DNA of 38,727 nucleotides from an uncultured SAR86 cluster bacterium (lineage in GTDB: Bacteria; Pseudomonadota; Gammaproteobacteria; Magnimaribacterales; Magnimaribacteraceae). Numbering within the stretch: position 1 is the stretch's first letter; every line of letters begins with the position of its first letter. Of the stretch, positions 8,736-27,990 are shown one piece after another. The notes under the pieces were generated by a model. The model was given only the letters and a program-made list of their open reading frames with translations. It had not been told where the DNA came from and made no database searches. The position numbers and the translations under genes are program-made. The stretch covers positions 1 through 38,727 of the forward strand of contig CACLEI010000011.1 in NCBI GenBank assembly GCA_902605935.1, read 5' to 3'.

Positions 8736-8974
8736 CTGTTCAAACGCTGTTGAAAAATATTTTTAATTTGTGCCTATTTTTTTTTATTAACCGAATATAC
8801 AAATCAATAGAGAGTTTATATTTTGGTTTTCTACAGCTTTCACGTCCTTAGCAAATCAATGAAATTAAAGGTTCGTGCTAGTTTTTCACAGGTATTGAGG
8901 TCCCTAATAATAACCAAGTAAGTTAAAATATGCATATTATAAAAATAAATTTAATTTTTTTTAATTGTGGATAA
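8736..8974. promoter_or_regulatory. AT-rich mnmE-mnmG intergenic region with DnaA-box-like sites; alternative or secondary origin-like locus
   Basis: Perfect TGTGGATAA (reverse of TTATCCACA) at 8966-8974 overlapping the mnmG GTG start; TTTTTCACA at 8882-8890 fits relaxed TTWTNCACA; long A/T tracts at about 8920-8965. Confidence 0.45.
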
Positions 8975-10163
8975 GTACGATGTAATAGTCATAGGTGGGG
9001 GGCACGCGGGCGTTGAGGCCGCAGAGGTGTGTTCTAGGTTTGGTGTAAAAACCTTACTTATTACCCACGATAAATCAAAGATAGGTGAAATGTCTTGCAA
9101 CCCTGCAATTGGAGGTATTGGTAAAAGTCACCTAGCCAAGGAAGTTGACGCCCTTGGGGGTTTGATGGCTCGAGCCACTGATAAGGCAGGCATACACTAC
9201 CGCGTTCTCAACTCTACTAAGGGACAAGCCGTAAGGGCCACTAGAGTGCAAACCGATAGAGAGCTTTATAAAGCTGCAATACAAAACTGTCTTTCTTCTT
9301 CTGCAAATCTCACGATCAAAGAAGGCTCAGTTGTCGACCTGGATATTAAGAATTCAACTATTAAGTCTGTCATAACCGAAAAAGAGGAAAAAATCTTTTC
9401 CAATTCAGTAATTTTAACAACAGGAACCTTTTTAGGGGGGGTAATGCATACTGGTCTGAAGCAATCTTCGGGCGGGCGAGTAGGAGATCCCTCTAGCGAT
9501 AAACTGGCTCAGAAACTTAGAGGGTTAAATTTAAAGGTTGGCAGATTAAAAACAGGAACACCCCCCAGACTCAATAAACACTCCATAGACTGGTCCCTTC
9601 TTTCACCGCAACCAGGCGATACTCCAACACCACTTCTTTCTTATACTTCCGAAGACAGCGAAAGGCCCGAGCAGTTAAATTGCTACATGACACGTACCAA
9701 CCAAACAACGCACCACGTAATATTAAAATACCTTGACGAATCACCGATGTATTCAGGTGTGATCGAGGGTATAGGACCAAGGTATTGCCCCTCTATTGAA
9801 GATAAAGTTATGAGATTTTCAGAAAGAGACTCTCATCAGATATTTGCTGAGCCGGAAGGACTTAATTCAGATCTTATTTATCCAAACGGCATTTCAACAA
9901 GCCTACCATTGAATGCTCAAAAAGAGCTTATAAAATCTATTAAAGGCTTTGAAAACGCAGAAATAGTAAGGCCCGGATATGCAATAGAGTATGATTTCTT
10001 TGACCCTACAGGCTTAAAACACTCTCTAGAAACAAAGACAATTTCGGGTTTATTCTTCGCGGGTCAAATCAACGGAACCACAGGATACGAAGAAGCAGCA
10101 GCTCAAGGCATAATGGCAGGAATTAACGCATCACTTTCAAATAGCATTGAATTTGGAAAATGA
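8967..10163 (+). pseudogene. mnmG: tRNA uridine-5-carboxymethylaminomethyl(34) synthesis enzyme MnmG, N-terminal portion only (truncated)
   Basis: FAD motif [16 protein letters not shown] through [26 protein letters not shown], then 8-10 residues of unrelated sequence and a stop. The C-terminal third (starting about YIGVLIDDL in homologues) is absent here and is found inverted at 38080-38727. Confidence 0.9.
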
Positions 10164-10641
10164 TGAACTAACTTTGTATAGACGTCTTGGATACAGAACT
10201 TCAGCCTATACTGAGGGCTGGGCCCTTTATGCTGAACAATTAGGAGTTGAAGTAGGGATGACTAAAAGTCTCTATGATGAATTGGGAGTGCTTCAAAGTG
10301 AAATGTTTAGAGCTAACAGATTGGTAGTAGATACTGGCTTACATTACAAAAAATGGACTAGGGAAAAAGCTATGGAGTATATGAAAAAAGTAACCGGTAT
10401 GTCTGATACTGAGGTGAGGGTTGAGATTGAAAGATATATTGTTTGGCCTGGACAAGCAACCAGTTACAAGATGGGTATGATAAAAATCTTAGATTTAAGA
10501 GATAAGGCCATGAAAGAACTGGGTGCAAAATTTGATCTCAGAAAATTTCATTCAATAGTTTTAGATCAAGGCATAGTCCCCTTATTTATCCTAGATGATT
10601 TAATAGATGAATGGATAAATGAAGAGAAAACTGTCAATTAG
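10129..10641 (+). pseudogene. DUF885-family protein, C-terminal fragment lacking its N-terminal portion
   Basis: Frame of ORF 10147-10641 extended upstream reads [39 protein letters not shown]...LVVDTGLHYKKWTREKAMEYMKKVTGMSDTEVRVEIERYIVWPGQATSYKMGMIKI, the C-terminal DUF885 pattern; homology begins abruptly at HHFQ (10129). Confidence 0.85.
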
Positions 10642-10712: not shown

Positions 10713-11138
10713 TTAGGCTGAGTGACAAGAGTCACAATCAAGTTTTCGGCAAAGTTTATAATTTTTATAATGCGCAAAAACAATAAGTGATGCTCCGATA
10801 GTAGTAAATAATTTCTCTCCGAACTCACCCCAAATAGCTGTGCCAATAATTACAGCAAAAATTAAAGCAATGATCCCGAGCAGTCCAGTGACAAAAAAGC
10901 TTAATTTTGAATGATTTTTCATTCCTCTAAAGAGAGCATAAAGGCTTACTGGTATTGCAAGTAACAATAGCAGGTAATGTATCAATTCATTGTTATATGA
11001 AAGCGTTACGTAACCTGAAAACAAAACTAACAACATAGGTACCAACAAACAATGAGCCAAACAAATAAGCGATAGGCTAATAGCTGTTTTATCTGAATAT
11101 TCTTGTGTAACTTTCATTATGTTTTGAAGGCGTTGCAC
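10713..11138 (-). CDS. MerC-domain membrane protein (alternative start at 11117)
   Basis: Four predicted TM segments, LSLICLAHCLLVPMLLVLFSG motif typical of MerC, C-terminal CRKLDCDSCHSA cysteine cluster. Confidence 0.75.
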   Translation of the reverse strand: MQRLQNIMKVTQEYSDKTAISLSLICLAHCLLVPMLLVLFSGYVTLSYNNELIHYLLLLLAIPVSLYALFRGMKNHSKLSFFVTGLLGIIALIFAVIIGTAIWGEFGEKLFTTIGASLIVFAHYKNYKLCRKLDCDSCHSA

Positions 11139-11187
11139 TTTAAATTATTAAATCTAATAATACAAATTTTAATTTATTAAATTTTTA

Positions 11188-11709
11188 CTAGACAATGTTG
11201 CTATCAATAAGAACAGCGATTAATAATGCTGGTTCAGTACCATTATTTACCCAAGCGTGATTTGTGCCTCTTTGAACAACAACATCATGCGGTTGTAGAG
11301 CTACCTCTTCTTCATCCAAAATCAGAGTAACATCCCCTTTGAGGAGAATAATATAATCAATGGTATGTGTCTCATGCATTGCTGCATTTCGTGAGGTATC
11401 AACCCTATGATGAGCTGCTCCCATTTTCTCAAAAGCCTCTGCAGTAGCCGCCTCAATTACCTCTTGAGGAACACCTTCTGGAATTGGATTAATCTGAAAA
11501 TATCTGAATTTAGTTCCGTCTTTAACTGGCGATAACATTATATCTATATCTGCTCTGTCATTATCTGACTTTGTTTCAAATCCCGATCCATCTGTATTCC
11601 AGATTTCAAATAATCCTCCAGCATCCTCTCCCAATGATCGGGCAGGAGGTCCGTCTATTGAAATGATGGATTTCCCATTTTCATTGTGACCAGTAATTAT
11701 TCGTCTCAT
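11188..11709 (-). CDS. Cupin-domain protein
   Basis: HETHTIDYIILLKGDVTLILDEEEVALQPHDVVVQRGTNHAWVNNG cupin motifs. Confidence 0.82.
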   Translation of the reverse strand: MRRIITGHNENGKSIISIDGPPARSLGEDAGGLFEIWNTDGSGFETKSDNDRADIDIMLSPVKDGTKFRYFQINPIPEGVPQEVIEAATAEAFEKMGAAHHRVDTSRNAAMHETHTIDYIILLKGDVTLILDEEEVALQPHDVVVQRGTNHAWVNNGTEPALLIAVLIDSNIV

Positions 11710-11728
11710 TTTATTCTCCCTTATAAGT

Positions 11729-12655
11729 TTATTGACTATGTTCTAAAAGAAACTGAATGGAATCTTGCATTGATGATTTCCTTGCTTGCCAATTGCAACC
11801 CAAGTGGGCTCCAATCTTTGCTCTGTCTTTGAATAATTTTGTTCTCTCATGTGGCTCATTCATCATAGTTTTTTTTCCATCTACATCTAAATGATAGTGT
11901 GTACCATCCTTTGCAACAATTGTATGTCGTCTTCCAACTGCTATTGCATTAGGCACAAATACTACTGGGTCTACAGAATCAAAAGAATGATGGCTATCTT
12001 CATAAGTAATTATCTTACTATTACCCCCATTTTCATTAATGGCTGGAGATAATTCTTCTATCAGAATAGATGGAGTGTAATCATCTTCTTTGCCAATCAG
12101 AGTTAAGATTGGTGCATCGCTCCAGCGCATTTCTTCTGGCCACATAAAAGCACCAGGATAGAAAGCTAAATGTCCTGCGAATCTTTCACCTGTCGGTGCT
12201 AATTTTTCAGCTAAAGGCTCCCAGGCTGAATAAATTGCTGTACTCCCGCCAAGACTCCATCCGGCAATGTAAATTTGATTAGAATCTATATCAGGATGAT
12301 CGGATAAAAGTTTCAACGCATTAAAGCAATCAGAGAGAACTGAAGCTAAAGTTACTTGCATTTGGTCTTCCACAATAGAGACGACACCTCTAGCATCAAA
12401 ACTATTTACTCGAAATATGGCAAAGCCATTATTTAGAAAGTTTACTGAATGCTCGTGGTGATGCCCTCTCCAGCCCATGCTGCCATGCATACATATAACA
12501 AGAGGATATTTTTTTTTCTTTCGTTCAGGAAAGATAAGAGATCCAAACATCTGTTGTTCTTCAGAAGGCGTAGAATTCAAAATATGAAAGAATTCAAATG
12601 GATTGGATGACTTGTAAGCGATCACACCCTCATCACCTGATTGCAATCTATGCAT
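11729..12655 (-). CDS. Alpha/beta hydrolase, dienelactone-hydrolase-like
   Basis: LVICMHGSMGWRGHHHEH, nucleophile elbow GWSLGGSTAIY, acid LIGKEDDYTP, His in DSHHSFD. Confidence 0.82.
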   Translation of the reverse strand: MHRLQSGDEGVIAYKSSNPFEFFHILNSTPSEEQQMFGSLIFPERKKKKYPLVICMHGSMGWRGHHHEHSVNFLNNGFAIFRVNSFDARGVVSIVEDQMQVTLASVLSDCFNALKLLSDHPDIDSNQIYIAGWSLGGSTAIYSAWEPLAEKLAPTGERFAGHLAFYPGAFMWPEEMRWSDAPILTLIGKEDDYTPSILIEELSPAINENGGNSKIITYEDSHHSFDSVDPVVFVPNAIAVGRRHTIVAKDGTHYHLDVDGKKTMMNEPHERTKLFKDRAKIGAHLGCNWQARKSSMQDSIQFLLEHSQ

Positions 12656-12660
12656 CTTAA

Positions 12661-13869
12661 CTAGTCCAATTGTTTCTTAAAACGTTCTCCGCGTTCTTTT
12701 GCAAGTTTATAGGCTGCTTGTGTTTCGGCCTTAACCTCATCATTTTGTTTTTCACGTAACTCAGCATATTCCTCAGCCCACCAACGCCTAGTTACCTGCG
12801 GAAAGGTCCCCATACGATTTACACTAGCATTTGCACCTCTGTCTCGTCCAGACTCATACCCTGCCGCACCTAAAGAATCAGCTTCAGATTTACCAAAAGG
12901 AATCAGATCTCCTTCCATTTTAGGCAATAAAAAATAAGGCATAGAAACTCTAGTCTCTCCTTCAGGTATCAATGTTGTATTAACGCGGTGTAAAGTAGCT
13001 GAATATCTACCTTCGCTAAGGTGCATTAAAGTTCCACCAGTATTGACGATGACAGATCCCGGGATAACTGGTACGTGGTATTCACCAGGTGCTGTTTGAC
13101 AGGTAACGGGGGCATCGATCCACTTGCCTTCTCCGGCAACAACTTGCAGTCCAGGACGATCGTTGATCAGCAGAGCTATAAATGGGGGCCCATCTATATG
13201 GGCACCTACTTTATCACTTGTGAATTTTTTATACTCATTTCTGACAATTTCCCGATCCTTTTCAGCAAATGCATCAATGCTATAATTATGATTAAGGCTC
13301 GCGGCCAGGTCTGGATTATCAAAATCAAAATATTCACGGAATGATTCAACATCTTCTCCCAGAGACTCGACAATGGCCTCCCCTAGTTCATGAGTAAGGC
13401 GATGATAACAATCATTCAGCTCATCTATTAAAGGTCGAAATCCTGGCAATGATTTATCTTCAGGCCAGGTGTTGGGGCCACGAAAGAGTCGGTGGTGAAT
13501 TGGTTGAGATTTATCATCGTAGTCACATAATGATTCTTGTTCGAATCCATACTGGAAAGCTTCTATAACTTGCCCAAAGCCACGATCAGCAGGAGTGGGC
13601 AAACTATAGCCACGAAAATATGGCGTATTGGATATATGAGCGGTTTTTTTTAATTCCATTGGAGAATCAAAAAAGCCTCTCACTTCTCTAAATGCACGCT
13701 TCTGAAATTCGTCAGATAATCCAGGTGCATTAGTAAGGACCATAAATCCGAATTCCGATAATGCGTAAGATAAGTCTTTAAAAAACTGTTCTGGGTTTGA
13801 CTCACGATCAAGCCAATCAACCTTAGGTAGTTGTAAGTCCGTCACGTAATTTTCTCTAGTTGCCTTCAT
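12661..13869 (-). CDS. Isopenicillin N synthase-like 2-oxoglutarate/Fe(II)-dependent oxygenase
   Basis: HID iron motif (GAHIDGPPFIALLINDRPGLQV), PGSVIVNTGGTLMHLSEGRYSATLHRV, R-x-S (TRVSMPYF), N-terminal DIOX_N-like region. Confidence 0.88.
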   Translation of the reverse strand: MKATRENYVTDLQLPKVDWLDRESNPEQFFKDLSYALSEFGFMVLTNAPGLSDEFQKRAFREVRGFFDSPMELKKTAHISNTPYFRGYSLPTPADRGFGQVIEAFQYGFEQESLCDYDDKSQPIHHRLFRGPNTWPEDKSLPGFRPLIDELNDCYHRLTHELGEAIVESLGEDVESFREYFDFDNPDLAASLNHNYSIDAFAEKDREIVRNEYKKFTSDKVGAHIDGPPFIALLINDRPGLQVVAGEGKWIDAPVTCQTAPGEYHVPVIPGSVIVNTGGTLMHLSEGRYSATLHRVNTTLIPEGETRVSMPYFLLPKMEGDLIPFGKSEADSLGAAGYESGRDRGANASVNRMGTFPQVTRRWWAEEYAELREKQNDEVKAETQAAYKLAKERGERFKKQLD

Positions 13870-13990: not shown

Positions 13991-14413
13991 TTACTTTTCT
14001 GGAAATAAAGTGCTCGGATCAAACATAGTTTTAATTTCAAGAACATTTCCACTTGGATCTTCAATGAAAAAAGTTTCTTGTTCTCTAGAATCTCCCTCAA
14101 ACCTTAAATAAGGTTTATCTAAAAAGTCATATTTTTCTCTATCGTTGACGCGCGATTTTAATTTATCAAAATCTTCCCTCATAAGGTGCACCCCAAAATG
14201 AGGTACGCACACATCACCCATATCTACATGATGCCTTTCTCTTGGAAGAGCTTCACTGGCTTCATGCAAAGTTAATTCGTTACCCCAAAAGTTTATGTCT
14301 TGCCATTTTCCTTCTTCAAAACTTCCAGCTTCGCAACCCAGAAAGTCACAATAAAACTTTTTTGATTCTTCTATACTGCCTACTGGAATGGCTAGATGAA
14401 ATCGATTTGACAT
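13991..14413 (-). CDS. VOC (glyoxalase/bleomycin resistance/dioxygenase) superfamily protein
   Basis: FHLAIPVGSIEESKKFYCDFLGCEAG ... HFGVHLMREDFDKLKSRV ... EQETFFIEDPSGNVLEIKTM. Confidence 0.88.
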   Translation of the reverse strand: MSNRFHLAIPVGSIEESKKFYCDFLGCEAGSFEEGKWQDINFWGNELTLHEASEALPRERHHVDMGDVCVPHFGVHLMREDFDKLKSRVNDREKYDFLDKPYLRFEGDSREQETFFIEDPSGNVLEIKTMFDPSTLFPEK

Positions 14414-14480: not shown

Positions 14481-15278
14481 TTATCCATGTTTTTTTATTA
14501 AATTTATTGCCCATTTTTTTACTTTTGGATTTTTTTCAATATCAAGAATGAATTCTTGTCCAAACCCCCTATAAAAAACTGTAGATTCTTCTTTATCCTC
14601 CCATTTCATTCTATTTAAAAAAAGGTCTTTCGAATCTTTAAAGTATTTGGAGGGCAGCTTCCATCTTGATCTAGTTTTATTTTTTTCAGTCAAAATTAAA
14701 TCATCATGGGTAAACTTAAACAAACCATGGCCTCGATCAAAAATTTTTCTTTTGTTAAGCTCTAATTTTTTCCTAGCTATGTAAAGTGTGTTGTTAGAAA
14801 ATTTCGAGGTATCTCCATGTCCATGAGGGTGTTGAATATTATTCTCACAAAGATATCTTTTAATTTCTTTTGATCCTTCAATTATTTTGTCTATTTGCAA
14901 CCAACCGAATAAATGATGCAAATCTCTACCATTTGCAGAAAAGTTTTTAAACCATCCAAAAAATAAAAACAAATCTCCAGGACCTACATTATTATTCTTT
15001 AATTCAGTCTGAGATGCACTTGCTTGGCCAAAAATGCCAATTTTTTCATTGAGCATTGGGTCGTTATGGCAATAATCCGTATCCCTAACTTTGGCTGAAA
15101 CCTCATTCAATAATTCAGTGCCTGAGATTCCATTAAAATTCAGGTCTTTATATTTTTTTGGTGAAGAATGATTTTGGGGGATAGGTATTGAAAAAAAACG
15201 CCCATCATTAAATATAGGTGAAGCACTGCCACCTGCCTTCGAGTCAAAACCCTTTCTACTTAATATTAATCTTCTCAA
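14481..15278 (-). CDS. Nmad3-like protein (putative nucleotide-modification-associated domain 3)
   Basis: MRRLILSRKGFDSKAGGSASPIFNDGRFFSIPIP, VGPGDLFLFFGWF, HHLFGWLQIDKII, HPHGH, FGQEFILDI, matching the Nmad3 pattern as I recall it; no search run. Confidence 0.6.
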   Translation of the reverse strand: MRRLILSRKGFDSKAGGSASPIFNDGRFFSIPIPQNHSSPKKYKDLNFNGISGTELLNEVSAKVRDTDYCHNDPMLNEKIGIFGQASASQTELKNNNVGPGDLFLFFGWFKNFSANGRDLHHLFGWLQIDKIIEGSKEIKRYLCENNIQHPHGHGDTSKFSNNTLYIARKKLELNKRKIFDRGHGLFKFTHDDLILTEKNKTRSRWKLPSKYFKDSKDLFLNRMKWEDKEESTVFYRGFGQEFILDIEKNPKVKKWAINLIKKHG

Positions 15279-15295: not shown

Positions 15296-15655
15296 TTAAC
15301 CAAAGCCAATAGAACAGAAACCAGAATATATTATCAACATTCCATCATCAATTGTACTTAGTCTCCCTTCAACGCCCATGTCTCCTCCAACGAGATAAAC
15401 TGTTCCTTTATCGGTTTCACCTGCTCTAAAAATTTCCTGTGTATCCAGATTGGCCAAAAGTGAGTTTTCCATAGGTAGTGATAAACCTTCACCAAATATA
15501 TCCCATATATCTTCATAGCCGGCAGTACCAATCCAGGCTCCAGAAGAAATAGAGTAAGCCTCACCAGACATAAAATTACAACTGACTGTTGCTGCCTTGA
15601 TGTTGGGCGATAAAAATGAAGCTAAAAAGATTAATTTTATTAAATAATTTTTCAT
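15296..15655 (-). CDS. Small secreted protein of unknown function
   Basis: From internal ATG at 15653-15655: MKNYLIKLIFLASFLSPNIKAATVSCNF..., a signal-peptide-like N-terminus with AxA-type cleavage; mature part ~100 aa with two Cys. Confidence 0.55.
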   Translation of the reverse strand: MKNYLIKLIFLASFLSPNIKAATVSCNFMSGEAYSISSGAWIGTAGYEDIWDIFGEGLSLPMENSLLANLDTQEIFRAGETDKGTVYLVGGDMGVEGRLSTIDDGMLIIYSGFCSIGFG

Positions 15656-15753
15656 ACGAGTCTCCTGGTGTGATGTAATTTTAAGAATAAAGATTATCAC
15701 TAATAATTAACTGCGTCATTTTACGAAAAAATTGTAAAAAATTAATTCTTAAG

Positions 15754-18700
15754 TTAGAGACTCAACATTAGCTCAAGAAAACAGATTTCTGATGACGAGA
15801 GATCATTGCTAGAAATACTTGAGTAGTCAGAAAAATAGCTAGATCTACCTTGCCATCTGCAACCAAGATTAGTGGTCATATCGGTAGAAATTTCAAGTAT
15901 CAATCCTAAGTCTACTTCCCAATTGTGAGTTTTCACCCCATTGTCCAATAGCAAGACGTAATTGATATTAGGCCCTTCTACGTTGTAATACATATTCTGG
16001 TTAGAAGTTTCCGAGTAATCTAAGCCATATTCTAGGGTTATATATGGCATTGCATTATATTTTGATCCAACAAATAGATAGCTGATATCAGTTCCAATTG
16101 AAGCCTTAACATTGGATAGTGTTAGTTCATCGAAAGTTAATGCGGCTTCACCGCCTATTTCACTAAATTTATCAAACTCAGTATATGAGGCATCAAATCT
16201 AAGATAAGGAGAAATTTGCCAGTTGCTTGATTCACTGCTGAATGAACGGATGAACGCAAGAGATCCATATATCTGATTAGCCTCACGTTGACCTCTCAAA
16301 AGCTCTTTACCATCTAAACGGTCTGAGTCAAATTCTAATCTACTGATCCCTAAAATAAATTGTAGGGCATTATTCCTATCATCGAATTTTCCATATGTTG
16401 AAAAGCTATAGTTTCTGGACTCTACATGAGATTCGTTATTTTTGTTTATTGGTTTAGCCTCTCCTAGGCCAAAGGCAAAACCAAATAGATTTCCATCATT
16501 ATTTAATCTATCAATTCCTACATGAAAAGATCTTTCATCTAGAATTCTTGTACTGTTTTTGTTTTTACGAAGAGTAAATTCTCCAAATTCACCATCAATC
16601 CATACTGTCCAATCTCCAAGCAGTTCCCTGAGCTCACCTTCAGCCGTAACTTTCACAGGATCTGATACCCAATCTTTAACGGTTGACTTAATTTGATCTA
16701 AATCTTGAGAGCTCTCAGCCTCTTCTCGTTCATTATAAATATTAGAAATTTGGATATCAGGATCAGTATCTGCAAGGCTTATATCCTGATTATAGTATTG
16801 GGGGTTTGTAACTAGCGAGTAGGAATGGTAAGAAGATTTTGTAAGGATAGATGTTGATGATTTAGGATTATCAAATTCTGTTACACAGAAATAATTTTCA
16901 TTAGGATCTGTCCATACTTTAAGGTCGTCTGTGAGTGTGTGGGTGTAAACCAAATTCTCGCCTAATTGTGCATTTGAAGATTCTAAAAGAGTCACAATAA
17001 TTTTTTTATCCCCTGTGGTAAAACCAAATCTTTCTGGCGGAATACCATCGATGAGAATAATGGCAGATTTGAGCCCAGCCTCTATATTTAACATACCTTC
17101 CCCAAATGAAAAGTTTTCTGTGCTTGATGAGCCCGTAATATTAAAATCAAGGACAACATCTTTGGGTGCAATCTTAGATAAATGTACTTTTATCTTCAAA
17201 GATGGGTCGGTTTTGGGTCCGCTAGATTTGATGGTACATAACTCTAAGATTGGCAATTCAACAAAATTATCATCGCGTTCATTAATGCTCATATTCTTAA
17301 TTGAATCAATAACATTATTGTTAAAATTAACCTTTAAACGATTCAAGCCTTGTTGCGCTGAGATCTTCATCCGTTTAGAAATTACATTGACATTTTGATC
17401 AACCCAACGTGTTGCAATCTGTAACATAGCTTTCGCATTATCAATAACAGGCTGCTTTAAAGTAGGATCCGTCAATATGATGGGAGTTTTAAAATTGAAC
17501 TCTTTTTTATCACTTATGCCTCTATAAGAATTGCCTATAATGTCTATAAATACGGTGTTTTCAATTAATACGTAATATTCTGTTTCATACTCAAGATCCG
17601 TTGGTAGATTAATTGTTATTGTCTCTGTCCCGCAACCTGTCACAGATTCATTTGGTAAACTGACAGCAAAAGAGGAAGAATTATCTTCTGATTCAATATT
17701 AATTATGCCTGATTCACAATTCACGATTTTGTTAAACGTCAAGATGATATCGCTATCCACTGGAACCCTGGTGCTGTCATCTTTGGGGTCAGTTCCAATT
17801 AGGATTGGTCTTTTATCATCGTCATTTGCCAATATTGTGTGAGTATAAACATAGTCCTCTCCCAGGGTTGCATTGGTAGGATTAGACAAGGTCACGATAA
17901 TCGTTTCGTCTTCCTCGGCCAGGTCGTCATCAATAATGCTAGGAATAGTTACGATTCCGGTATTTTCACCAGCAATAATTATTAAAGTACCGTTGTCTAA
18001 ATTATAGTCAACGCCTGATCCGGTTGCCGTTCCTGTTAATTCATAATCCACTGATATTTCCTTGGCGGATACCGCAGAAAGGTCAACTGTAATGCTTATT
18101 GATGGAGAAGGCTCATCGCTTTGGGAGCTGCTAATATTAAAATCTATGTTAGGAAGACTATCATTATCATTAATGGTATAAGTGTGGACATTATCAGCCC
18201 CTAAGGTTGCATTGCTTGGATTTGATAAGGTTACTATCACCGTCTCATTTTCTTCATCCAATAGGTCATCGATAATATCTGTTATCGTAATAGTTCCAGT
18301 AGTTTCGCCAGCACTTATCGTGAGCGTTCCATCAGCTAAGGTGTAATCTGTACCGGAGCCTGTAGCAGTCCCAGTAACCGCAAAGTCAAGTGTCACATTT
18401 TGAGTGGGCGCAACAGATAAATCTAAAGTTAAGGCTGCAGAAGTTATAGATTCATCACCATTTGAAGTTGGAGCACTAAAGTTAATGATCGGAGTAGTGT
18501 CATTATCAATAATTGTAAAAGTATGGGCACTATCATTACCCAGAGTTGCATTGACTGGATTAGATAAAGTAATAATTATTGTTTCATCAGGCTCGTCAAA
18601 TGGATCATCAATAATACTCGCGATGGTAATCGTGCCGCTAGTTTCACCCGCATTAATAGTTAGTTTTCCAGCGCCAAGGGTGAAATCTTCTCCTGATCCA

Positions 18701-21700
18701 GTTGCAGTACCTGTAATTGCATAATCAACTGTCACGTTTTGATTTGATACAGCAGATAAATCTACTGTTAGGCCTGCAGAAGAAACTGATTCAGCTCCGC
18801 TTGAGCTGGTTGTATTAAAGTCAATTTCGGGAGGATTGTCATTATCAGTAATAATGGCAGTATGGACAATATCACTCCCAAGGATCGCACCGGTTGGATT
18901 TGATAAAGTGATGATTATTGTTTCATCAGCTTCATCTGCTTGATCATCTATAATCGATGGAATGACTATTGTTCCACTTGTTGCACCCTCCTCAATAGTC
19001 ACGCTGCCAGATGACAATGAGTAGTCTGTGCCTGATCCAGCAGTGCCCCCGGTGACTCCATAATCAACCTGAATTGCTGTAGAAGCTGCAAAGAGAACAC
19101 CGATAGCTATTGATCTCGTAGTAACTGATTCCGAATCAGTGGAGGTCGAAGTAGAAAATGCTACCGTTGGAGTGCCATCATTATCACTGATGGTGTATGT
19201 ATGGACAATATCATTTCCAAGAACAGCATTATTTGGATTAGATAAAGTAATGATTACTGTCTCATTAGCTTCGTCCAGATCATCATCAATAATTCCGGCT
19301 ATTGTGATAGTTCCAGAAGTTCCACCAGCACTTATAGTAAGGGTTCCATTGGCAAGAGTGTAATCGGTACCAGAACCTGAAGCCGTTCCTGTAACTGCGT
19401 AATCCACAGTAATGTTGCTACTTGAAGCTGCAGATAAATCAACAGTTAAAGCTACTGATGATATATCTTCAGCACCATTTGAACTTGCGACATTAAAGTC
19501 GATTGTAGGCAAGCCATCATCATCAGCAATTGTATAAGTATGAACATCATCACTACCTAATGTAGCATTACTAGGACTTGATAAAGTTACGATTACCGTT
19601 TCATCTGGTTCGTCCGCAGAATCATCAACAATATCTGTAATCGTTATAGTGCCTGTTGTGGAACCTGCAGCAATACTTAAGGTTCCATTTATTAGCGTAT
19701 AGTCTGTTCCTGATCCACTAGCTGTGCCTGTAACTGCGTAATCGACCGTTACGGTTTCGCTAGAAGGCCCAGATAAATCCACTGTAATAGCCTTAGAAGA
19801 TACAGATTCAGCTCCACTTGAACTGGTAGAATTGAAGTCAATGGTTGGAGTATTGTCATTGTCAGTGATAGTGTAAGTATGAACTTTGTCAGTACCCAGA
19901 GTTGCGTTACTTGGGTTGGAAAGAGTCAGAACAACAGTTTCATTAGCTTCGTCTATAGAGTCGTCAACTATGCTAGCAATTGTTATCGTGCCAGTTGAGG
20001 ACCCAGCATTAATTGTAAGAGTTCCACTCCCAAGAGTGTAATCAGTGCCTGTGCCTGTTGCAGTTCCAGTCAAAGCATAATTAACAGTGACGGCTTTTGC
20101 AGAAACTGCAGATAAATCAACAGTAATGGCTTTGGAGGAAACTGACTCGGCTCCAGTTGAGCTTGAAGTATTGAAATCAACTACTGGAGCATCGTCATTA
20201 TCAGCGATGGTATAAGTATGAACAGTGTCAGTACCCAGAGTTGCGTTACTTGGGTTGGAAAGAGTCAGAACAACGGTCTCGTTGTCTTCATCTAAAGAGT
20301 CATTAACAATGCTTGCGATAGTAATCGTTCCAATTGTTGTTCCTGAATTGATGGTTAGGGTCCCGTTCGCAAGTGTGTAATCGGTACCTGATCCTGTCGC
20401 AGTTCCTGTCAAAGCATAATCAACTGTGACGTTTTGACTGGAAGCTGCAGATAAATCCACTGTAATAACTTTGGACGATACTGATTCAGCTCCACTTGAG
20501 CTTGTAGTATTGAAGTCTACTGCTGGTGCGTTATCGTTATCAGTAATGGTGTAAGTATGAACTTTATCACTGCCAAGGGTTGCATTACTGGGGTTCGACA
20601 AAGTAACAATAACGGTCTCATTGGCTTCATCTAAAGAATCATCAATAATTCCTGCTATCGTAATTAAGCCTGTTGTTGATCCTGCACTTATGGTGAGTGT
20701 TCCATTAGCTAGCGTGTAATCTGTACCTGATCCAGTTGCAGTTCCTGTGATTGCATAATCAACTGTTACGTTTTGACTTGACGCGGCGGATAAATCCACA
20801 GTTAAACCTGCCGAAGAAACTGATTCAACATTACTTGAGCTTGTGGCATTGAAGTCAACTACAGGTGCGCTGTCATTATCAGTAATGGTGTACGTATAAA
20901 CGCTATCACTGCCTAGCGTTGCATTGTTTGGGTTGGATAGAGTCAAAATGACTGTCTCATTAGCTTCATCAGCTGCATCATCAATAATGCTAGAGATAGT
21001 TATAGTCCCAGTTGATGAGCCTGCATTGATAGTTAAGGTGCCATTGGCTAAGGTGTAATCAGTGCCTGACCCTGTTGCAGTTCCAGTTACCGCATAATCA
21101 ACTGTTACGTCTTGTGCCGAAACTGCAGATAAATCTACAGTAATGGCCTTTGAAGATATTGATTCCGCACCACTTGAGCTGGTGGTATTGAAATCAACAG
21201 CTGGTGGATCATCATTATCAGTAATGGTGTAAGTATGAGCGTCATCACTGCCCAAGGTTGCATTACTGGGGTTAGACAAGGTCACGATGACGGTTTCATT
21301 TGCTTCGTCTAAAGAGTCATTAACAATGCTACCGATTGTAATAGTCCCGCTTGTTTCACCGGCATTGATAGTTAAGGTGCCATTGGCTAAGGTGTAATCA
21401 GTACCTGACCCTGTTGCAGTTCCAGTTACCACATAATCAACTGTTACATTTTGTCCTGAGACTGCTGATAAATCTACAGTCAAACCTGCCGAAGAAACTG
21501 ATTCAGCGTCACTTGAGCTGGTGGCATTGAAGTCAACTACAGGTGCGCTGTCATTATCGGTTATAGTGTAAGTGTGAGCATCATCACTGCCTAAGGTTGC
21601 ATTACTGGGGTTCGACAAAGTAATGATGACTGTCTCATCAGCCTCATCAATTGAGTCATCGATAATACTTGATATATTAATAGTCCCAGTTGATGAGCCC

Positions 21701-24700
21701 GCATTGATGGTTAAGGTGCCATTGGCTAAAGTGTAATCAGTGCCTGACCCTGTTGCTGTTCCCGTAACTGCATAATCAACTGTTACGTCTTGTGCTGAAA
21801 CTGCAGATAAATCTACAGTCAATGCTGCAGAAGAAACTGATTCAGCGTCACTTGAGCTGGTGCCACTAAAATCAACCACTGGCGGGTTATCATTATCAGT
21901 TATGGTATAAGTATGAACAAGAATGGTGCCTGGATCTGCGTTTGACGGATTAGATAAGGTGATAATGACTGTTTCATTGACCTCATCCAAAGAGTCATCA
22001 ACAATTCCAGCAATAGTAATCGTCGTTGATGTTGAACCAGCTGCAATAGTCGCAGTACCATTAGCTAAAGTGTAATCAGTGCCAGATCCTGTAGCAGTTC
22101 CAGTCACTGCATAATTAACTGTCACATCTTCTCCCGAGGTTGCCGATATATTGACTGTAATGGCTGTAGAAGATGATGATTCAGCTCCGCTTGAAGTGGC
22201 ATCAGCAAAAGATATATCTCTGTCTCCTTCTGGCTCCTGAATTGTGAACGTATGAACATTGTCACTACCTAGAGTTGCATTACTTGGACTTGATAAAGTA
22301 AGAATGACGGTTTCATTTGGGTCAGTAACTCCATCATTAACAATCCCAGCTATTGTGATAGTCCCTGTTGTTGATCCTGCACTTATGGTGAGTGTTCCAT
22401 TAGCTAGAGTGTAATCAGTACCTGATCCAGTTGCAGTTCCGGTTACCGCATAATTGACCGTTACATTTTGTCCTGAGACTGCTGATAGATCAACTGTGAC
22501 AGCTTTAGTAGATACAGATTCTAATCCGCTAGAACTAGTTAATTCAAAATCAATAACTGGGGCGTTGTCATTATCAGTAACGGTATAAGTATGAGCATCG
22601 TCACTTCCTAAGGTTGCATTACTGGGGTTCGACAAAGTAACGATGACTGTTTCATTTGCCTCATCCAATGAATCGTCAGCGATGCTACCAATAGTAATGA
22701 TTCCAGAAGTTGCACCAGCGTTTATAGTTAAGGTGCCATTTGCTAGCGTGTAATCAGTGCCCGATCCAGTTGCAGTTCCTGTAACAGCATAATCAACTGT
22801 TACATTTTTACTGGATGCAGCGGATAAATCTACCGTTAAAGCTTTAGAAGAAACTGACTCAGCTCCGCTTGAGCTGGTTGTATTAAATTCAACCACAGGT
22901 GCATTATCGTTATCATTGATAGTATAAGTATGGGTATCGTCACTTCCTAGAGTTGCACTGGTGGGACTAGATAACGTAACGATAACAGTCTCATTGGCTT
23001 CATCTAGAGTGTCGTTAACAATACTAGCAATGGTGATAGCTCCAGATGTTGACCCGGCGCTTATGGTTAGCGTTCCATTAGCTAGCGTGTAATCTGTACC
23101 TGATCCAGTGGCAGTTCCTGTAACCGCATAATTAACTGTAACATTTTGACCAGAGGCGGTGGATAAATCGACGGTGATAGCTTTGGCAGATACGGATTCA
23201 GCTCCATTTGAGCTGGTGGTATTAAAATCCACCACTGGGGCACTGTCATTATCGGTGATGGTATAAGTATGAGTATCGTCACTTCCTAAGGTTGCATTAC
23301 TGGGGTTTGACAAAGTAACGATAACTGTCTCATTGGATTCATCTAGAGTATCGTTAACAATGCTGGCAATGGTTATCGTGCCAGATGTCGACCCGGCAAC
23401 TATAGTGAGCGTTCCATTGGCTAAAGAGTAATCAGTGCCTGATCCTGTTGCAGTTCCTGTAACAGCATAATCAACTGTTACGTTTTGACTCGATGCTGCC
23501 GATAAATCGACAGTGAGTGCTTTAGAGGAAACTGACTCAGCTCCATTTGAGCTGGTTGTATTGAAATCAACGACTGGAGCGTCGTCATTATCAGTAATGG
23601 TATAGGTATGTGCATCATCACTTCCCAAAGTTGCATTACTGGGGCTGGATAAAGTAACTATTACTGTCTCATTAGGCTCATCTAAACCATCATCGACAAT
23701 TCCTGCTATTGTAATAGTTCCTGATGTTGCACCAGCACTTATAGTTAGTGTTCCGTTAGCAAGCGTGTAATCTGTTCCCGATCCAGTTGCCGTTCCAGTC
23801 ACCGCATAATCAACCGTCACATTTTGGGTTGATGAAGCAGATAAATCCACCGTGAGAGCTTTGGAAGAGACAGATTCAGCACCGCTTGAACTAGTAGTAT
23901 TGAAATCAACTACTGGCACATCATCGTTATCAGAAATGGTGTAAGTGTGAACGCTGTCACTACCCAATGATGCGTTACTAGGACTAGATAAGGTTAGTAT
24001 GACTGACTCACTGCCCTCAGTGATTGAATCGTCCACGATGCTGGCAATAGTGATAGTGTCGGATGTTGCACCCGCATTGATTGTAAGGGTGCCGTTGGCC
24101 AGCGTGTAATCTGTACCGGAGCCTGTTGCAGTTCCGGTTACCGCATAATTGACCGTTATGTTTTGTGCTGAAGCTGCAGATAAATCTACTGTGATTGCCT
24201 GAGAAGACACAGATTCAGCGCCGCTTGAACTAGTAGTATTAAAATCAACTACTGGCGCGTTATCGTTATCAGTTATGGTATATGTGTGAACGCTGTCAGA
24301 ACCCAAAGTTGCATTGCTGGGACTTGATAAAGTGACGATTACTGTCTCATTGGCTTCATCCAGACTATCATCAACAATCCCGGCTATTGTAATGGTTCCA
24401 GATGTTGCTCCTGCATTGATGGTTAAGGTGCCATTTGCTAGCGTGTAATCAGTGCCTGATCCTGTTGCAGTTCCAGTAACCGCATAATTGACTGTTACAT
24501 TTTGTGCCGAGGCTGCTGATAAATCTACCGTAATGGCCTTGGAAGATACGGATTCAGCTCCATTTGAGCTGGTGGTATTAAAATCCACCACTGGGGCACT
24601 GTCATTATCGTTGATGGTATAAGTATGAGCGCTATCACTGCCCAATGTTGCATTACTGGGATTCGACAACGTGACTACGACTGTCTCATTAGCTTCATCG

Positions 24701-25677
24701 AGAGAATCATCGATGATACTGCCAATGGTGATGGTACCGGATGTTGCACCAGCACTAATAGAAAGTGTTCCGTTGGCTAGAGTGTAATCAGTGCCTGATC
24801 CTGTTGCAGTTCCTGTAACTGCATAGTCAACCGTTACGTTCTGCGTTGAAGCGAATGATAAGTCTACAGTTAAGGCAGTAGAGGAAACAGATTCTGCTCC
24901 GTTGGAACTGGTGATATTAAAATCAACAGTTGGGTTCGCAGCTCTAGTTATAACTCGAATATAGTCACCTGGCTTACCATTTTTCGAGCCAAATCTTAAT
25001 GTTCTTTTGTCAGAGCCAATTGATACCCAGTCACCGGACTGAGTTGAGCTTGTTGTGCTGCTACCATAATGAACATGATCTTCGGTCTGCCTTGCACTGA
25101 AACCACTATTACTTGAGGTTGGATAGGTTGCACTTAATTTATCTACATAATCAAAATCAACAGTCATTGAGGGGTCTGTCCAGTATCCTAATATTTCATA
25201 ATCAAACACTATTTCACCAATCATTGAGGTTCGATCAGATTTATTGCTATGTTGGTCATTAATAAAAACTAGGTAAGAATTGGCAGGAGTATTCCCAAAT
25301 ACAATTGAAGTCGCACTTCCAGTAGGAACATAGCCAAGGCCACTAAAGTTATAAGTATTTGTGCATATGGAGCTACTCTGGCCTTGCTGACAGATTGCTG
25401 TTCTTTCAGGAGTGATGATAAAGTCAAATCCCGAAGATGATCTTTGACCATCCATGCTTTGTTTTCGAGCCCTAAAATCTGTGGCGCTACTGTTGATTTC
25501 TACATAGGAATTAGTGCTTGCAATACCATCTGCATGGACTTGTATAGACAACAAGCCGACAAATAATAGAAATGCACCTTTATAAAAGGATCTTATTAAA
25601 TTCACCCCTAATTTCAAAACAACCCCACCAAAAAAAATTCCGGCCTGAATTCTATATAAATAATGACAAATTATCAT
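15754..25677 (-). CDS. Giant Calx-beta-repeat surface protein with signal peptide, Big_5-like domain and C-terminal autotransporter-type barrel
   Basis: 3307-aa ORF; hydrophobic FYKGAFLLFVGLLSIQVHA signal-like segment; 21 repeats ending HTYTI-x-DND; RPILIGTDPKDDSTRVPVDSDIILTFNK Big_5-like; C-terminal ~300 aa of alternating amphipathic strands (WIDGEFGEF..., HVGIDRL..., FGFAFGLGEA...). True start may be internal (e.g. GTG of VNLIRSFYKG). Confidence 0.85.
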   Translation of the reverse strand: MIICHYLYRIQAGIFFGGVVLKLGVNLIRSFYKGAFLLFVGLLSIQVHADGIASTNSYVEINSSATDFRARKQSMDGQRSSSGFDFIITPERTAICQQGQSSSICTNTYNFSGLGYVPTGSATSIVFGNTPANSYLVFINDQHSNKSDRTSMIGEIVFDYEILGYWTDPSMTVDFDYVDKLSATYPTSSNSGFSARQTEDHVHYGSSTTSSTQSGDWVSIGSDKRTLRFGSKNGKPGDYIRVITRAANPTVDFNITSSNGAESVSSTALTVDLSFASTQNVTVDYAVTGTATGSGTDYTLANGTLSISAGATSGTITIGSIIDDSLDEANETVVVTLSNPSNATLGSDSAHTYTINDNDSAPVVDFNTTSSNGAESVSSKAITVDLSAASAQNVTVNYAVTGTATGSGTDYTLANGTLTINAGATSGTITIAGIVDDSLDEANETVIVTLSSPSNATLGSDSVHTYTITDNDNAPVVDFNTTSSSGAESVSSQAITVDLSAASAQNITVNYAVTGTATGSGTDYTLANGTLTINAGATSDTITIASIVDDSITEGSESVILTLSSPSNASLGSDSVHTYTISDNDDVPVVDFNTTSSSGAESVSSKALTVDLSASSTQNVTVDYAVTGTATGSGTDYTLANGTLTISAGATSGTITIAGIVDDGLDEPNETVIVTLSSPSNATLGSDDAHTYTITDNDDAPVVDFNTTSSNGAESVSSKALTVDLSAASSQNVTVDYAVTGTATGSGTDYSLANGTLTIVAGSTSGTITIASIVNDTLDESNETVIVTLSNPSNATLGSDDTHTYTITDNDSAPVVDFNTTSSNGAESVSAKAITVDLSTASGQNVTVNYAVTGTATGSGTDYTLANGTLTISAGSTSGAITIASIVNDTLDEANETVIVTLSSPTSATLGSDDTHTYTINDNDNAPVVEFNTTSSSGAESVSSKALTVDLSAASSKNVTVDYAVTGTATGSGTDYTLANGTLTINAGATSGIITIGSIADDSLDEANETVIVTLSNPSNATLGSDDAHTYTVTDNDNAPVIDFELTSSSGLESVSTKAVTVDLSAVSGQNVTVNYAVTGTATGSGTDYTLANGTLTISAGSTTGTITIAGIVNDGVTDPNETVILTLSSPSNATLGSDNVHTFTIQEPEGDRDISFADATSSGAESSSSTAITVNISATSGEDVTVNYAVTGTATGSGTDYTLANGTATIAAGSTSTTITIAGIVDDSLDEVNETVIITLSNPSNADPGTILVHTYTITDNDNPPVVDFSGTSSSDAESVSSAALTVDLSAVSAQDVTVDYAVTGTATGSGTDYTLANGTLTINAGSSTGTINISSIIDDSIDEADETVIITLSNPSNATLGSDDAHTYTITDNDSAPVVDFNATSSSDAESVSSAGLTVDLSAVSGQNVTVDYVVTGTATGSGTDYTLANGTLTINAGETSGTITIGSIVNDSLDEANETVIVTLSNPSNATLGSDDAHTYTITDNDDPPAVDFNTTSSSGAESISSKAITVDLSAVSAQDVTVDYAVTGTATGSGTDYTLANGTLTINAGSSTGTITISSIIDDAADEANETVILTLSNPNNATLGSDSVYTYTITDNDSAPVVDFNATSSSNVESVSSAGLTVDLSAASSQNVTVDYAITGTATGSGTDYTLANGTLTISAGSTTGLITIAGIIDDSLDEANETVIVTLSNPSNATLGSDKVHTYTITDNDNAPAVDFNTTSSSGAESVSSKVITVDLSAASSQNVTVDYALTGTATGSGTDYTLANGTLTINSGTTIGTITIASIVNDSLDEDNETVVLTLSNPSNATLGTDTVHTYTIADNDDAPVVDFNTSSSTGAESVSSKAITVDLSAVSAKAVTVNYALTGTATGTGTDYTLGSGTLTINAGSSTGTITIASIVDDSIDEANETVVLTLSNPSNATLGTDKVHTYTITDNDNTPTIDFNSTSSSGAESVSSKAITVDLSGPSSETVTVDYAVTGTASGSGTDYTLINGTLSIAAGSTTGTITITDIVDDSADEPDETVIVTLSSPSNATLGSDDVHTYTIADDDGLPTIDFNVASSNGAEDISSVALTVDLSAASSSNITVDYAVTGTASGSGTDYTLANGTLTISAGGTSGTITIAGIIDDDLDEANETVIITLSNPNNAVLGNDIVHTYTISDNDGTPTVAFSTSTSTDSESVTTRSIAIGVLFAASTAIQVDYGVTGGTAGSGTDYSLSSGSVTIEEGATSGTIVIPSIIDDQADEADETIIITLSNPTGAILGSDIVHTAIITDNDNPPEIDFNTTSSSGAESVSSAGLTVDLSAVSNQNVTVDYAITGTATGSGEDFTLGAGKLTINAGETSGTITIASIIDDPFDEPDETIIITLSNPVNATLGNDSAHTFTIIDNDTTPIINFSAPTSNGDESITSAALTLDLSVAPTQNVTLDFAVTGTATGSGTDYTLADGTLTISAGETTGTITITDIIDDLLDEENETVIVTLSNPSNATLGADNVHTYTINDNDSLPNIDFNISSSQSDEPSPSISITVDLSAVSAKEISVDYELTGTATGSGVDYNLDNGTLIIIAGENTGIVTIPSIIDDDLAEEDETIIVTLSNPTNATLGEDYVYTHTILANDDDKRPILIGTDPKDDSTRVPVDSDIILTFNKIVNCESGIINIESEDNSSSFAVSLPNESVTGCGTETITINLPTDLEYETEYYVLIENTVFIDIIGNSYRGISDKKEFNFKTPIILTDPTLKQPVIDNAKAMLQIATRWVDQNVNVISKRMKISAQQGLNRLKVNFNNNVIDSIKNMSINERDDNFVELPILELCTIKSSGPKTDPSLKIKVHLSKIAPKDVVLDFNITGSSSTENFSFGEGMLNIEAGLKSAIILIDGIPPERFGFTTGDKKIIVTLLESSNAQLGENLVYTHTLTDDLKVWTDPNENYFCVTEFDNPKSSTSILTKSSYHSYSLVTNPQYYNQDISLADTDPDIQISNIYNEREEAESSQDLDQIKSTVKDWVSDPVKVTAEGELRELLGDWTVWIDGEFGEFTLRKNKNSTRILDERSFHVGIDRLNNDGNLFGFAFGLGEAKPINKNNESHVESRNYSFSTYGKFDDRNNALQFILGISRLEFDSDRLDGKELLRGQREANQIYGSLAFIRSFSSESSNWQISPYLRFDASYTEFDKFSEIGGEAALTFDELTLSNVKASIGTDISYLFVGSKYNAMPYITLEYGLDYSETSNQNMYYNVEGPNINYVLLLDNGVKTHNWEVDLGLILEISTDMTTNLGCRWQGRSSYFSDYSSISSNDLSSSEICFLELMLSL
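17815..24933 (-). repeat. 21 x 339-bp tandem coding repeat (113-aa Calx-beta-like unit)
   Basis: Unit boundaries placed at P-x-(V/I)-(D/E)-F: first unit starts at 24933 (PTVDFN), last ends at 17815 (...ILANDDD); 24933-17815+1 = 7119 = 21 x 339 exactly. Consensus core TVDYAVTGTATGSGTDYTLANGTLTI. Confidence 0.92.
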
Positions 25678-26154: not shown

Positions 26155-27990
26155 CTACTCCACCGTCACAGACTTAGCGAGGTTTCGTGGCTGATCAATG
26201 TCAGTTCCCTTAAGGATGGCTACATGATAAGCAAGCAGCTGTAGTGGGATAGAATATATGAGAGGGGCAATCAGCTCAGGGACTTCAGGCAGTTCAATAA
26301 ATTTGGTTATTGATTCATCTTCCTGATGAGCTGCAGAGTGTCCAAAAACATAAAGCTTTCCTCCTCGCGCTCTAACTTCTTCAAGGTTTGATTGAAGTTT
26401 TGCAAGCAGATCATCATTAGGGGCAACCGCGACAACAGGCATTTCTGAATCAACGAGAGCTAATGGTCCGTGTTTCAGTTCTCCTGCAGGATATGCTTCT
26501 GCGTGTATATAGGAAATTTCTTTAAGCTTTAGCGCACCTTCCATGGCTACGGGGTAATGAATGCCTCTACCCAAAAAGAGAGCATGTTCCTTTTGATCAA
26601 AATCTTCTGCCATTTCAATAATTTGATCTTCAAGCAACATTACCGAATCTAAAGAATCAGGTAGTGCTCTTAGTGAATTATTTATGGTATTTTCTGCAGC
26701 CGAGGATAGACCATGATGCCTTCCGAGAATTAAAGTTAACATCAATAAGCCAACGAGCTGAGTGGTAAAGGCTTTTGTTGAAGCAACACCTATTTCAGGG
26801 CCTGCTTTGGTTAAAAATACTAAATCAGATTCTCTCGCTAAAGAGCTTGAAGGGACATTGCATATACCAAGGCGGGCTAAGTAGCCTGAATCTTTTGCAG
26901 CACTTAAGCAAGCAAGCGTATCTGCTGTTTCACCAGACTGAGAAATCGTTATAAATAGTGTATTTGGCGCTACAACTTTATTTCTATATCTAAATTCACT
27001 TGCCACTTCTACGCTGCAGGGCAAACCAGCAAGACCTTCTAACCAATATTTAGCTACTGTTCCGGCATGGAAGCTAGTTCCACAAGCTACAATCTGGACA
27101 GCCTCTACTTTTTTGAAAATATCTGGGGCAATTGGACCGAAGATTTCTTCCTGAACACCAGAATCAGTCAGTTGTCCTTCTAACAGGCCTTTGATTTTTG
27201 ATGGCTGCTCATTAATTTCTTTTAGCATGAAGTGCCTATATTCACCTTTATCAACCGTCTCTCCTAAAGACTTAGCAACTACAACAGGTCTTTGAACTTC
27301 AGTATCATCCAGGTCCCAGTAGCGAATTGTTTCAGATGTAATTTCGGCAAGGTCGCCATCTTCAAGAAATACAAAATTCTCAGCAAAATCTGCTAAAGCA
27401 AGTTGATCGGAAGCTATAAAATTTTCACCATGGCCCATACCGATAACCAAGGGACTTCCTTTTCTGGCTGAAGCCAAAATTCCAGGTTCGTTCTCACAAA
27501 CTGCACCTATTGCATAAGCTCCTCTGAGATCCTTCACTGCCGCCTTCAAGGCATCGATTAAAGTCACTTTATTCTCGCTCATTTTTGCATGAATCAGGTG
27601 AGCAATAACTTCTGTGTCTGTTTCTGACTCAAAAACATAACCTAAAGCTTTAAGCGTAGTTCTAATTTCTTGATGATTTTCAATAATGCCGTTATGAATA
27701 ACAAAAATATTATTATTTGAATGGTGCGGGTGAGCATTTGTCTCTGTTGGCAGGCCATGAGTTGCCCATCTGGTGTGGGCAATACCCGTATTACCGTTCA
27801 CAGGATTTTGATCAATGGAGTTTTGGAGCTCTGCCACCTTACCAGTGCTTTTAAATACCTTTATTTGTTCTGTTTCATCAAAAATAGCAAGGCCAGCTGA
27901 GTCATATCCTCTATATTCCTGACGCAAAAGCCCTACCAGCAGTTTATCTACTGAGGGTTTGCTAGAAGCTACTCCGATTATTCCACACAT
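26155..27990 (-). CDS. glmS: Glutamine-fructose-6-phosphate aminotransferase (isomerizing)
   Basis: MCGIIGVA N-terminal nucleophile, HTRWATHG, SIS domains, C-terminal DIDQPRNLAKSVTVE. Confidence 0.97.
   Translation of the reverse strand: MCGIIGVASSKPSVDKLLVGLLRQEYRGYDSAGLAIFDETEQIKVFKSTGKVAELQNSIDQNPVNGNTGIAHTRWATHGLPTETNAHPHHSNNNIFVIHNGIIENHQEIRTTLKALGYVFESETDTEVIAHLIHAKMSENKVTLIDALKAAVKDLRGAYAIGAVCENEPGILASARKGSPLVIGMGHGENFIASDQLALADFAENFVFLEDGDLAEITSETIRYWDLDDTEVQRPVVVAKSLGETVDKGEYRHFMLKEINEQPSKIKGLLEGQLTDSGVQEEIFGPIAPDIFKKVEAVQIVACGTSFHAGTVAKYWLEGLAGLPCSVEVASEFRYRNKVVAPNTLFITISQSGETADTLACLSAAKDSGYLARLGICNVPSSSLARESDLVFLTKAGPEIGVASTKAFTTQLVGLLMLTLILGRHHGLSSAAENTINNSLRALPDSLDSVMLLEDQIIEMAEDFDQKEHALFLGRGIHYPVAMEGALKLKEISYIHAEAYPAGELKHGPLALVDSEMPVVAVAPNDDLLAKLQSNLEEVRARGGKLYVFGHSAAHQEDESITKFIELPEVPELIAPLIYSIPLQLLAYHVAILKGTDIDQPRNLAKSVTVE

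Follow-up and report, generated by a model that had tools for sequence, protein, structure and literature searches.

A stand-alone Nmad3 gene of SAR86 bacteria: horizontal exchange and a predicted PUA-like fold that may serve in handling modified bases

Introduction

Nmad3 (PF18754, nucleotide modification associated domain 3) is a protein family that takes its name from nucleotide-modification genes. Our literature search found no paper characterising Nmad3 and no assay of any member. DefensePredictor lists an unspecified NMAD among its unvalidated predicted defence domains (PMC13092281), and Nmad5, a different family, has been linked to Tmn defence (PMC11846954); Nmad3 was tested in neither study.

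The closest described systems by predicted structure are PUA-like domains. EVE proteins (PF01878), including VcaM4I and THYN1, read modified bases. In VcaM4I, a flipped 5mC or 5hmC sits in the EVE pocket, held there by the residues that follow strand 1 and by aromatics on either side (PMC7897488). ASCH proteins (PF04266), ZmASCH among them, are a second such family. Other systems offer further comparisons: EVE-HNH and other type IV modification-dependent restriction enzymes, and the base-hypermodification systems of phages. Here we compare an Nmad3 gene from a SAR86 genome with these families and systems, and with its own relatives.

Results

The window carries a full-length, stand-alone Nmad3 gene

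The window, the whole stretch of 38,727 nucleotides that was analysed, is one complete contig (C11) of an 855-kb genome that is ~51% complete and whose near relatives are SAR86 cluster bacteria, a gammaproteobacterial group. Reading of the open frames and similarity to relatives place dnaA, dnaN, recF, rnpA, yidC and mnmE at one contig end and the atp genes at the other; genes upstream of glmU were identified only through similarity to relatives. The Nmad3 gene lies between glmS and a junction of mnmG with a DUF885-like gene, in the following setting:

26155-27990, minus strand: glmS, which anchors the Nmad3-bearing variable region on its upstream side
15754-25677, minus strand: 3307-aa predicted secreted protein with 21 Calx-beta stretches, a variable-region gene and not an Nmad3 partner
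15296-15700, minus strand: small protein, predicted to be secreted, encoded immediately upstream of Nmad3 and without a Pfam match; a genus-specific neighbour (7 loci)
14481-15278, minus strand: Nmad3, coding for 265 aa from a TTG at 15278, PF18754 match, GC 31.6%
13991-14413, minus strand: VOC/glyoxalase-family gene (PF00903), next downstream of Nmad3; only 3 of the SAR86 loci examined have one
10713-13869, minus strand: block of 2OG-Fe(II) oxygenase (PF03171/PF14226), DLH hydrolase (PF01738), cupin (PF07883) and MerC genes, downstream; positional neighbours only

An initial annotation, made from the letters alone, had placed an Nmad3-like gene at exactly these coordinates. The plus strand is full of stops there, and the minus strand is open for 265 aa from the TTG, which lines up with the GTG and ATG starts of relatives (VKRIILSRKG in L037, MKKVILSRKG in L039). 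The family assignment held when a Pfam scan was run: residues 3-246 match positions 1-247 of the 247-position PF18754 profile (E 2.6e-57), and the score of 194.7 bits against a curated cut-off of 27 bits excludes a chance match. Nmad3 is the sole Pfam family detected in the protein, and all motifs by which it had been recognised are there (LSRKGFDS, AGGSASPI, GPGDLFLFFGWF, GWLQ, HPHGH and GQEFILD). PADLOC, from which Nmad3 is absent, PHROGs and NCBIfam gave no useful match, and no solved homologue was found by sequence. Around the gene, a promoter scan returned fewer matches than in shuffled sequence.

No phage, integrase, restriction or base-modification gene was seen beside Nmad3 among the window ORFs read or scanned, in agreement with the initial description of a gene without phage context. 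Nucleotide-modification genes accompany other members of the family; none adjoins here, and membership rests on the profile. Unlike a phage base-hypermodification system, the window Nmad3 has neither neighbouring modifying enzymes nor a phage or prophage setting; unlike type IV restriction enzymes, it has no nuclease domain in the protein (Pfam scan) and no nuclease gene adjoining it within the window. The window gene is a true, stand-alone member of Nmad3.

Two features of the surroundings deserve a brief description. The Calx-beta protein is predicted to be secreted, and its C-terminus, on our reading, resembles an outer-membrane barrel; its gene has shorter open frames, partly cut by contig ends, in relatives L019, L020 and L139, and it occurs without Nmad3 in G014/L139. 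At the other side, within 8967-10641 (plus strand), mnmG encodes only 398 aa and runs directly into a 164-aa C-terminal fragment of the DUF885-like gene, which is 609 aa long in relatives (L019); similarity to relatives begins near 10129. This junction probably reflects a deletion, or a chimera formed during assembly or amplification.

The predicted fold resembles PUA-like domains

AlphaFold2 models of the window protein (pLDDT 91.6) and of L109, a 34%-identical relative (pLDDT 90.4), were compared with the PDB by Foldseek. Neither model gave a match below E 1e-3; the lowest value was 0.067, with a target-based TM-score of about 0.33. The matches of both were mostly PUA-like (EVE, ASCH, YTH, Lon-N and ATP-sulfurylase-N), none individually significant. 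The ten best PDB matches of the window model are, on our reading, all of EVE or ASCH type; ATP sulfurylase, YTH and further proteins come next. With L109, EVE and ASCH recurred and were joined by ATP sulfurylase, Lon N-domains and BPP1347, which are PUA-domain-like in SCOP. Among viral models, ASCH and DUF3850 proteins recurred.

The likeness to EVE lies in the predicted topology: strand 1, a helix, a GD motif and two long strands, an order of elements that DSSP analysis of the window model found compatible with the PUA-like comparison. The top EVE matches were 2hd9, 1wmm and 2p5d, none of them significant. In contrast to EVE, Nmad3 has no Pfam EVE match, is ~100 residues longer and has other invariant residues. 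ASCH was matched through 5y6b, 5guq and 2z0t and through ASCH-annotated viral models, yet Nmad3 has neither a Pfam ASCH match nor profile similarity to that family. In hhalign, EVE was the best of 36 profiles but reached a probability of 2%, aligning the GD-FF motif (sAQthL-N-gVg-GDlFLFFG in Nmad3, Arn-mr-mqiGDlgffYh in EVE); ASCH reached 0.1%. No Pfam PUA-like family matched any of 28 Nmad3 members. On the models, we consider it likely that Nmad3 contains a PUA-like core of the kind found in EVE, ASCH, YTH and SRA.

We judged invariance in three alignments of 22, 28 and 19 Nmad3 members. About 30 residues are invariant, including H71, D73, H121, H150, H152, Q241 and E242, and the window protein keeps all the family-invariant elements conserved across divergent members: SRKGFD, H-D-P, GQ, D-F-F-G, HPH, W and QE. 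The parts of the gene that matter here are:

15243-15260, minus strand: residues 7-12, SRKGFD loop, invariant and directly after strand 1 in the AlphaFold2 model; candidate ligand pocket loop
14877-15035, minus strand: residues 82-134, a strand, helix 87-95, the GD motif and strands 103-112 and 120-134; proposed PUA-like core
14823-14831, minus strand: residues 150-152, HPH; both histidines (H150, H152) are invariant throughout the three alignments, and P151 in two of them (A3 and A4)
14553-14558, minus strand: residues 241-242, QE, invariant, near the C-terminus

The SRKGFD loop occupies the place that matches the pocket loop of EVE, and by analogy it is a candidate pocket loop in Nmad3. Base modification had been the function anticipated for the family; the predicted fold would point at least as much to a binder of modified bases as to a base modifier. 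The invariant polar residues listed above keep an enzyme possible, and we return to that alternative with the partner genes below.

The downstream genes are neighbours by position

Pfam agreed with the initial annotation that VOC, 2OG-oxygenase, hydrolase and cupin genes follow Nmad3 on the same strand. The accompanying hint that these genes matter was not supported. One rival reading joins Nmad3 to the VOC, 2OG oxygenase, DLH hydrolase and cupin genes as a metabolic operon; they share its strand and are adjacent in eight loci of the genus. However, the four genes of the block, 2OG-DLH-cupin-MerC, occupy the same site in three congeners in which Nmad3 was not detected (G005, G014 and G017), so the block is a neighbour by position and not a partner. 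G009 has DLH-MerC-cupin on a short contig, lacking both the 2OG gene and Nmad3. Conversely, in every other SAR86 family examined, Nmad3 is present and the block is missing. We rejected the operon, which is largely refuted and now hardly credible.

Nmad3 is patchy in SAR86 and rare in other gammaproteobacteria

We found Nmad3 in 9/19 genomes of the genus, 12/35 of the family and 48/199 of the order (SAR86), and in 18 of 40 high-quality SAR86 genomes. Elsewhere it was detected in 5/365 sampled gammaproteobacteria, after removal of SAR86 members, and in 9/399 genomes of a phylum sample that includes the window's own genome. The enrichment in SAR86 (48/199 versus 5/365) has p 2e-18, with related genomes counted as independent.

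The stand-alone state noted at the outset is correct, but it is less unusual than had been implied. Three queries (SAR86, gammaproteobacterial and Firmicutes-type) gave 0 matches in 50,697 phage records, and stand-alone chromosomal copies are common in proteobacteria, many of those outside SAR86 having plain metabolic neighbours. Lack of phage context is the rule for Nmad3. Two plasmid records carried the gene, both very large replicons (Burkholderia and Cupriavidus), and an alignment-based scan of IMG/VR yielded 11 loci, whose contigs are (pro)viral or element-like and carry structural and recombinase genes.

The IMG/VR contigs, together with the low GC and horizontal spread described below, would suit a gene that is leftover or cargo of a mobile element or prophage and shields the element from host restriction. 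Against this reading, and against a phage origin, stands the absence of matches in the phage records, and no mobile-element gene was seen beside the SAR86 copies examined. We regard it as very unlikely.

Nmad3 is exchanged at a variable site downstream of glmS

We compared the divergence of Nmad3 with that of GlmS. Between SAR86 families, Nmad3 is 85-88% identical where GlmS is 49-65% identical (for example, 88 and 52% for L028/L032), a contrast indicating that Nmad3 moves horizontally. Within the genus the order is reversed, with Nmad3 at 89-94% identity (one pair 97%) and GlmS at 97-99%, and in L028/L040 GlmS is 97% identical and Nmad3 only 65% (over the longer fragment). The Nmad3 tree groups copies of families f2, f3 and f4 at 85-91% identity, whereas other f3 and f4 copies are only about 49-59% identical to that group, an incongruence. 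SAR86 copies of Nmad3 cluster in a separate clade that shares 31-40% identity with the outgroup copies in the comparison. The GC content of the gene is 31.6%, against a window gene median of 39.2%. Slow evolution of Nmad3 was considered as a cause of the high identity across families and was rejected, since among congeners the divergence is greater in Nmad3 than in GlmS.

A further copy, in L025 (2697-3494), lies beside glmU-glmS in a record labelled Betaproteobacteria TMED41 and is 80% identical to that of the window, with GlmS at 50%; this is either a cross-class transfer or a mislabelled bin. Misbinning of metagenome contigs could account for single cases such as L025, L034 and G002. It would not explain what is seen in single-cell genomes. 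In L040 (8001-8799), a frameshift divides Nmad3 between two ORFs of 110 and 165 aa that overlap, and L028, close by GlmS, has a different, intact allele. From the identity contrasts, the tree and the low GC, we conclude that SAR86 bacteria exchange Nmad3 horizontally, as an accessory gene of a variable region that follows glmS. Tn7 classically attaches in this same region downstream of glmS; Tn7 genes were not seen at the Nmad3 locus.

This mode of inheritance bears on a housekeeping-like role, in which Nmad3 would bind RNA through its PUA-like core or maintain tRNA or rRNA. PUA and ASCH domains are mostly RNA-associated (PMC7641849), most Nmad3 copies are chromosomal, stand-alone and intact, and housekeeping genes adjoin the gene in some lineages. 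Such a role is nevertheless distinctly unlikely for a gene that is patchy even in the high-quality SAR86 genomes, rare outside the order in both samples, and horizontally transferred with swapping of alleles.

Neighbours differ among SAR86 clades, and partners appear elsewhere

A gene-neighbourhood survey, proposed with the initial annotation, found no fixed partner in SAR86. Neighbours differ clade by clade: a 228-aa putative zinc metallopeptidase adjoins Nmad3 in eleven loci (two being second copies of the same contig), and a gene that we read as ArsC-like does so in another clade. The variable region of relatives also holds restriction genes: type III mod/res in L026 and L028 and, in L027, a C5-methylase together with a type II REase that PADLOC recognises. 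L028 has homologues of both L027 genes. An HNH gene is present in the region in L022 and L033 (4548-5477 and 2401-3330, respectively); it adjoins a HIT-like gene and encodes 309 aa (PF13395; weakly similar to the Cas9 HNH, PADLOC). An N6/N4 methyltransferase lies within 5 kb of Nmad3 in 2 of the 8 SAR86 genomes having both, an arrangement with a probability of about 0.003 by chance. Genome-wide linkage of Nmad3 with an N6/N4 DNA methylase in SAR86 was also considered and rejected (8/48 versus 21/151, p 0.64).

Outside SAR86, partners recur. Nmad2 directly adjoins Nmad3 at four loci, two chromosomal (L078 and L084) and two from IMG/VR (L101 and L106), and IMG/VR loci L102, L103 and L104 carry a ParB-fused N6/N4 methylase on the stretch that holds Nmad3, directly upstream of it in the last two; the Pfam scan for these loci covered the L102 and L103 proteins. 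An IMG/VR scan for further Nmad2 returned the query itself as its sole match. Near Nmad3 in L107 are HARE-HTH, UvrD-like and TIR-STAND genes. In comparison with other members of the family, then, SAR86 copies are without an adjoining Nmad2, seldom accompanied by a methylase and in a clade of their own. In L105 (758-2068, plus strand), Nmad3 has a C-terminal extension of ~155 residues with a sub-threshold HNH_3 match (E 0.1), a possible analogy to EVE-HNH and type IV enzymes; if confirmed, the extension would be the first effector clue for Nmad3.

The mobile loci that link Nmad3 to Nmad2 or a ParB-DNA methylase fit an enzyme acting on DNA or RNA, which would install or alter a base modification through its conserved His, Asp, Gln and Glu residues, as do the Pfam name and the many invariant polar residues across the whole length. 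PUA-like enzymes exist, among them ZmASCH, reported to be an RNase (PMC5615036). On the other hand, no cofactor- or nucleotide-binding family is recognisable in the protein (Pfam, NCBIfam), the fold matches are mostly binding domains, and the gene has no pathway partner in SAR86, where Nmad2 was found in 0/61 genomes by a search run without a positive control. We consider such an enzyme somewhat unlikely.

Discussion

Our preferred explanation, a tentative one to which we give a probability of roughly 0.4, is that Nmad3 is a PUA-like protein that senses or processes modified bases, is encoded by a single accessory gene and probably takes part in phage or DNA conflict. Bound to nucleic acid, it would flip a modified base or nucleotide into a pocket whose lining includes the invariant SRKGFD loop together with conserved aromatic and histidine residues, and would mark or process it. 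In SAR86, Nmad3 would work by itself or together with chromosomal factors, with incoming phage or foreign DNA as its most likely target, and outside SAR86 it may work with Nmad2 or a DNA methylase. Support for this explanation comes from the defence-like locus, with its type III and type II restriction-modification and HNH genes in the variable region of relatives, from the horizontal mobility and low GC of the gene, from the Nmad2 and methyltransferase partners elsewhere, and from the EVE- and ASCH-like fold matches. Counted against it are the low significance of those fold matches and of the EVE profile alignment, the absence of any Pfam PUA-like match, the ~30 invariant residues, which exceed the needs of a simple reader and would suit an enzyme, and the lack of an adjoining nuclease or effector in the window, of a genome-wide methylase association and of an entry in PADLOC.

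A bolder form would make Nmad3 a new PUA-like family of modified-base recognition, a one-gene anti-phage module that in SAR86 replaces the usual readers and is swapped downstream of glmS. No EVE protein was found in the 41 SAR86 relatives searched. We hold this stronger version to be unlikely.

For the Nmad3 family, the sensor or processor reading provides a testable fold and a type of ligand, a modified base, both of them predicted. SAR86 is an abundant, uncultured ocean lineage, and the gene is common, mobile and partner-free there, which favours simple one-gene tests. If Nmad3 recognises modified DNA, it would add one more family of readers to the conflict between phages and bacteria.
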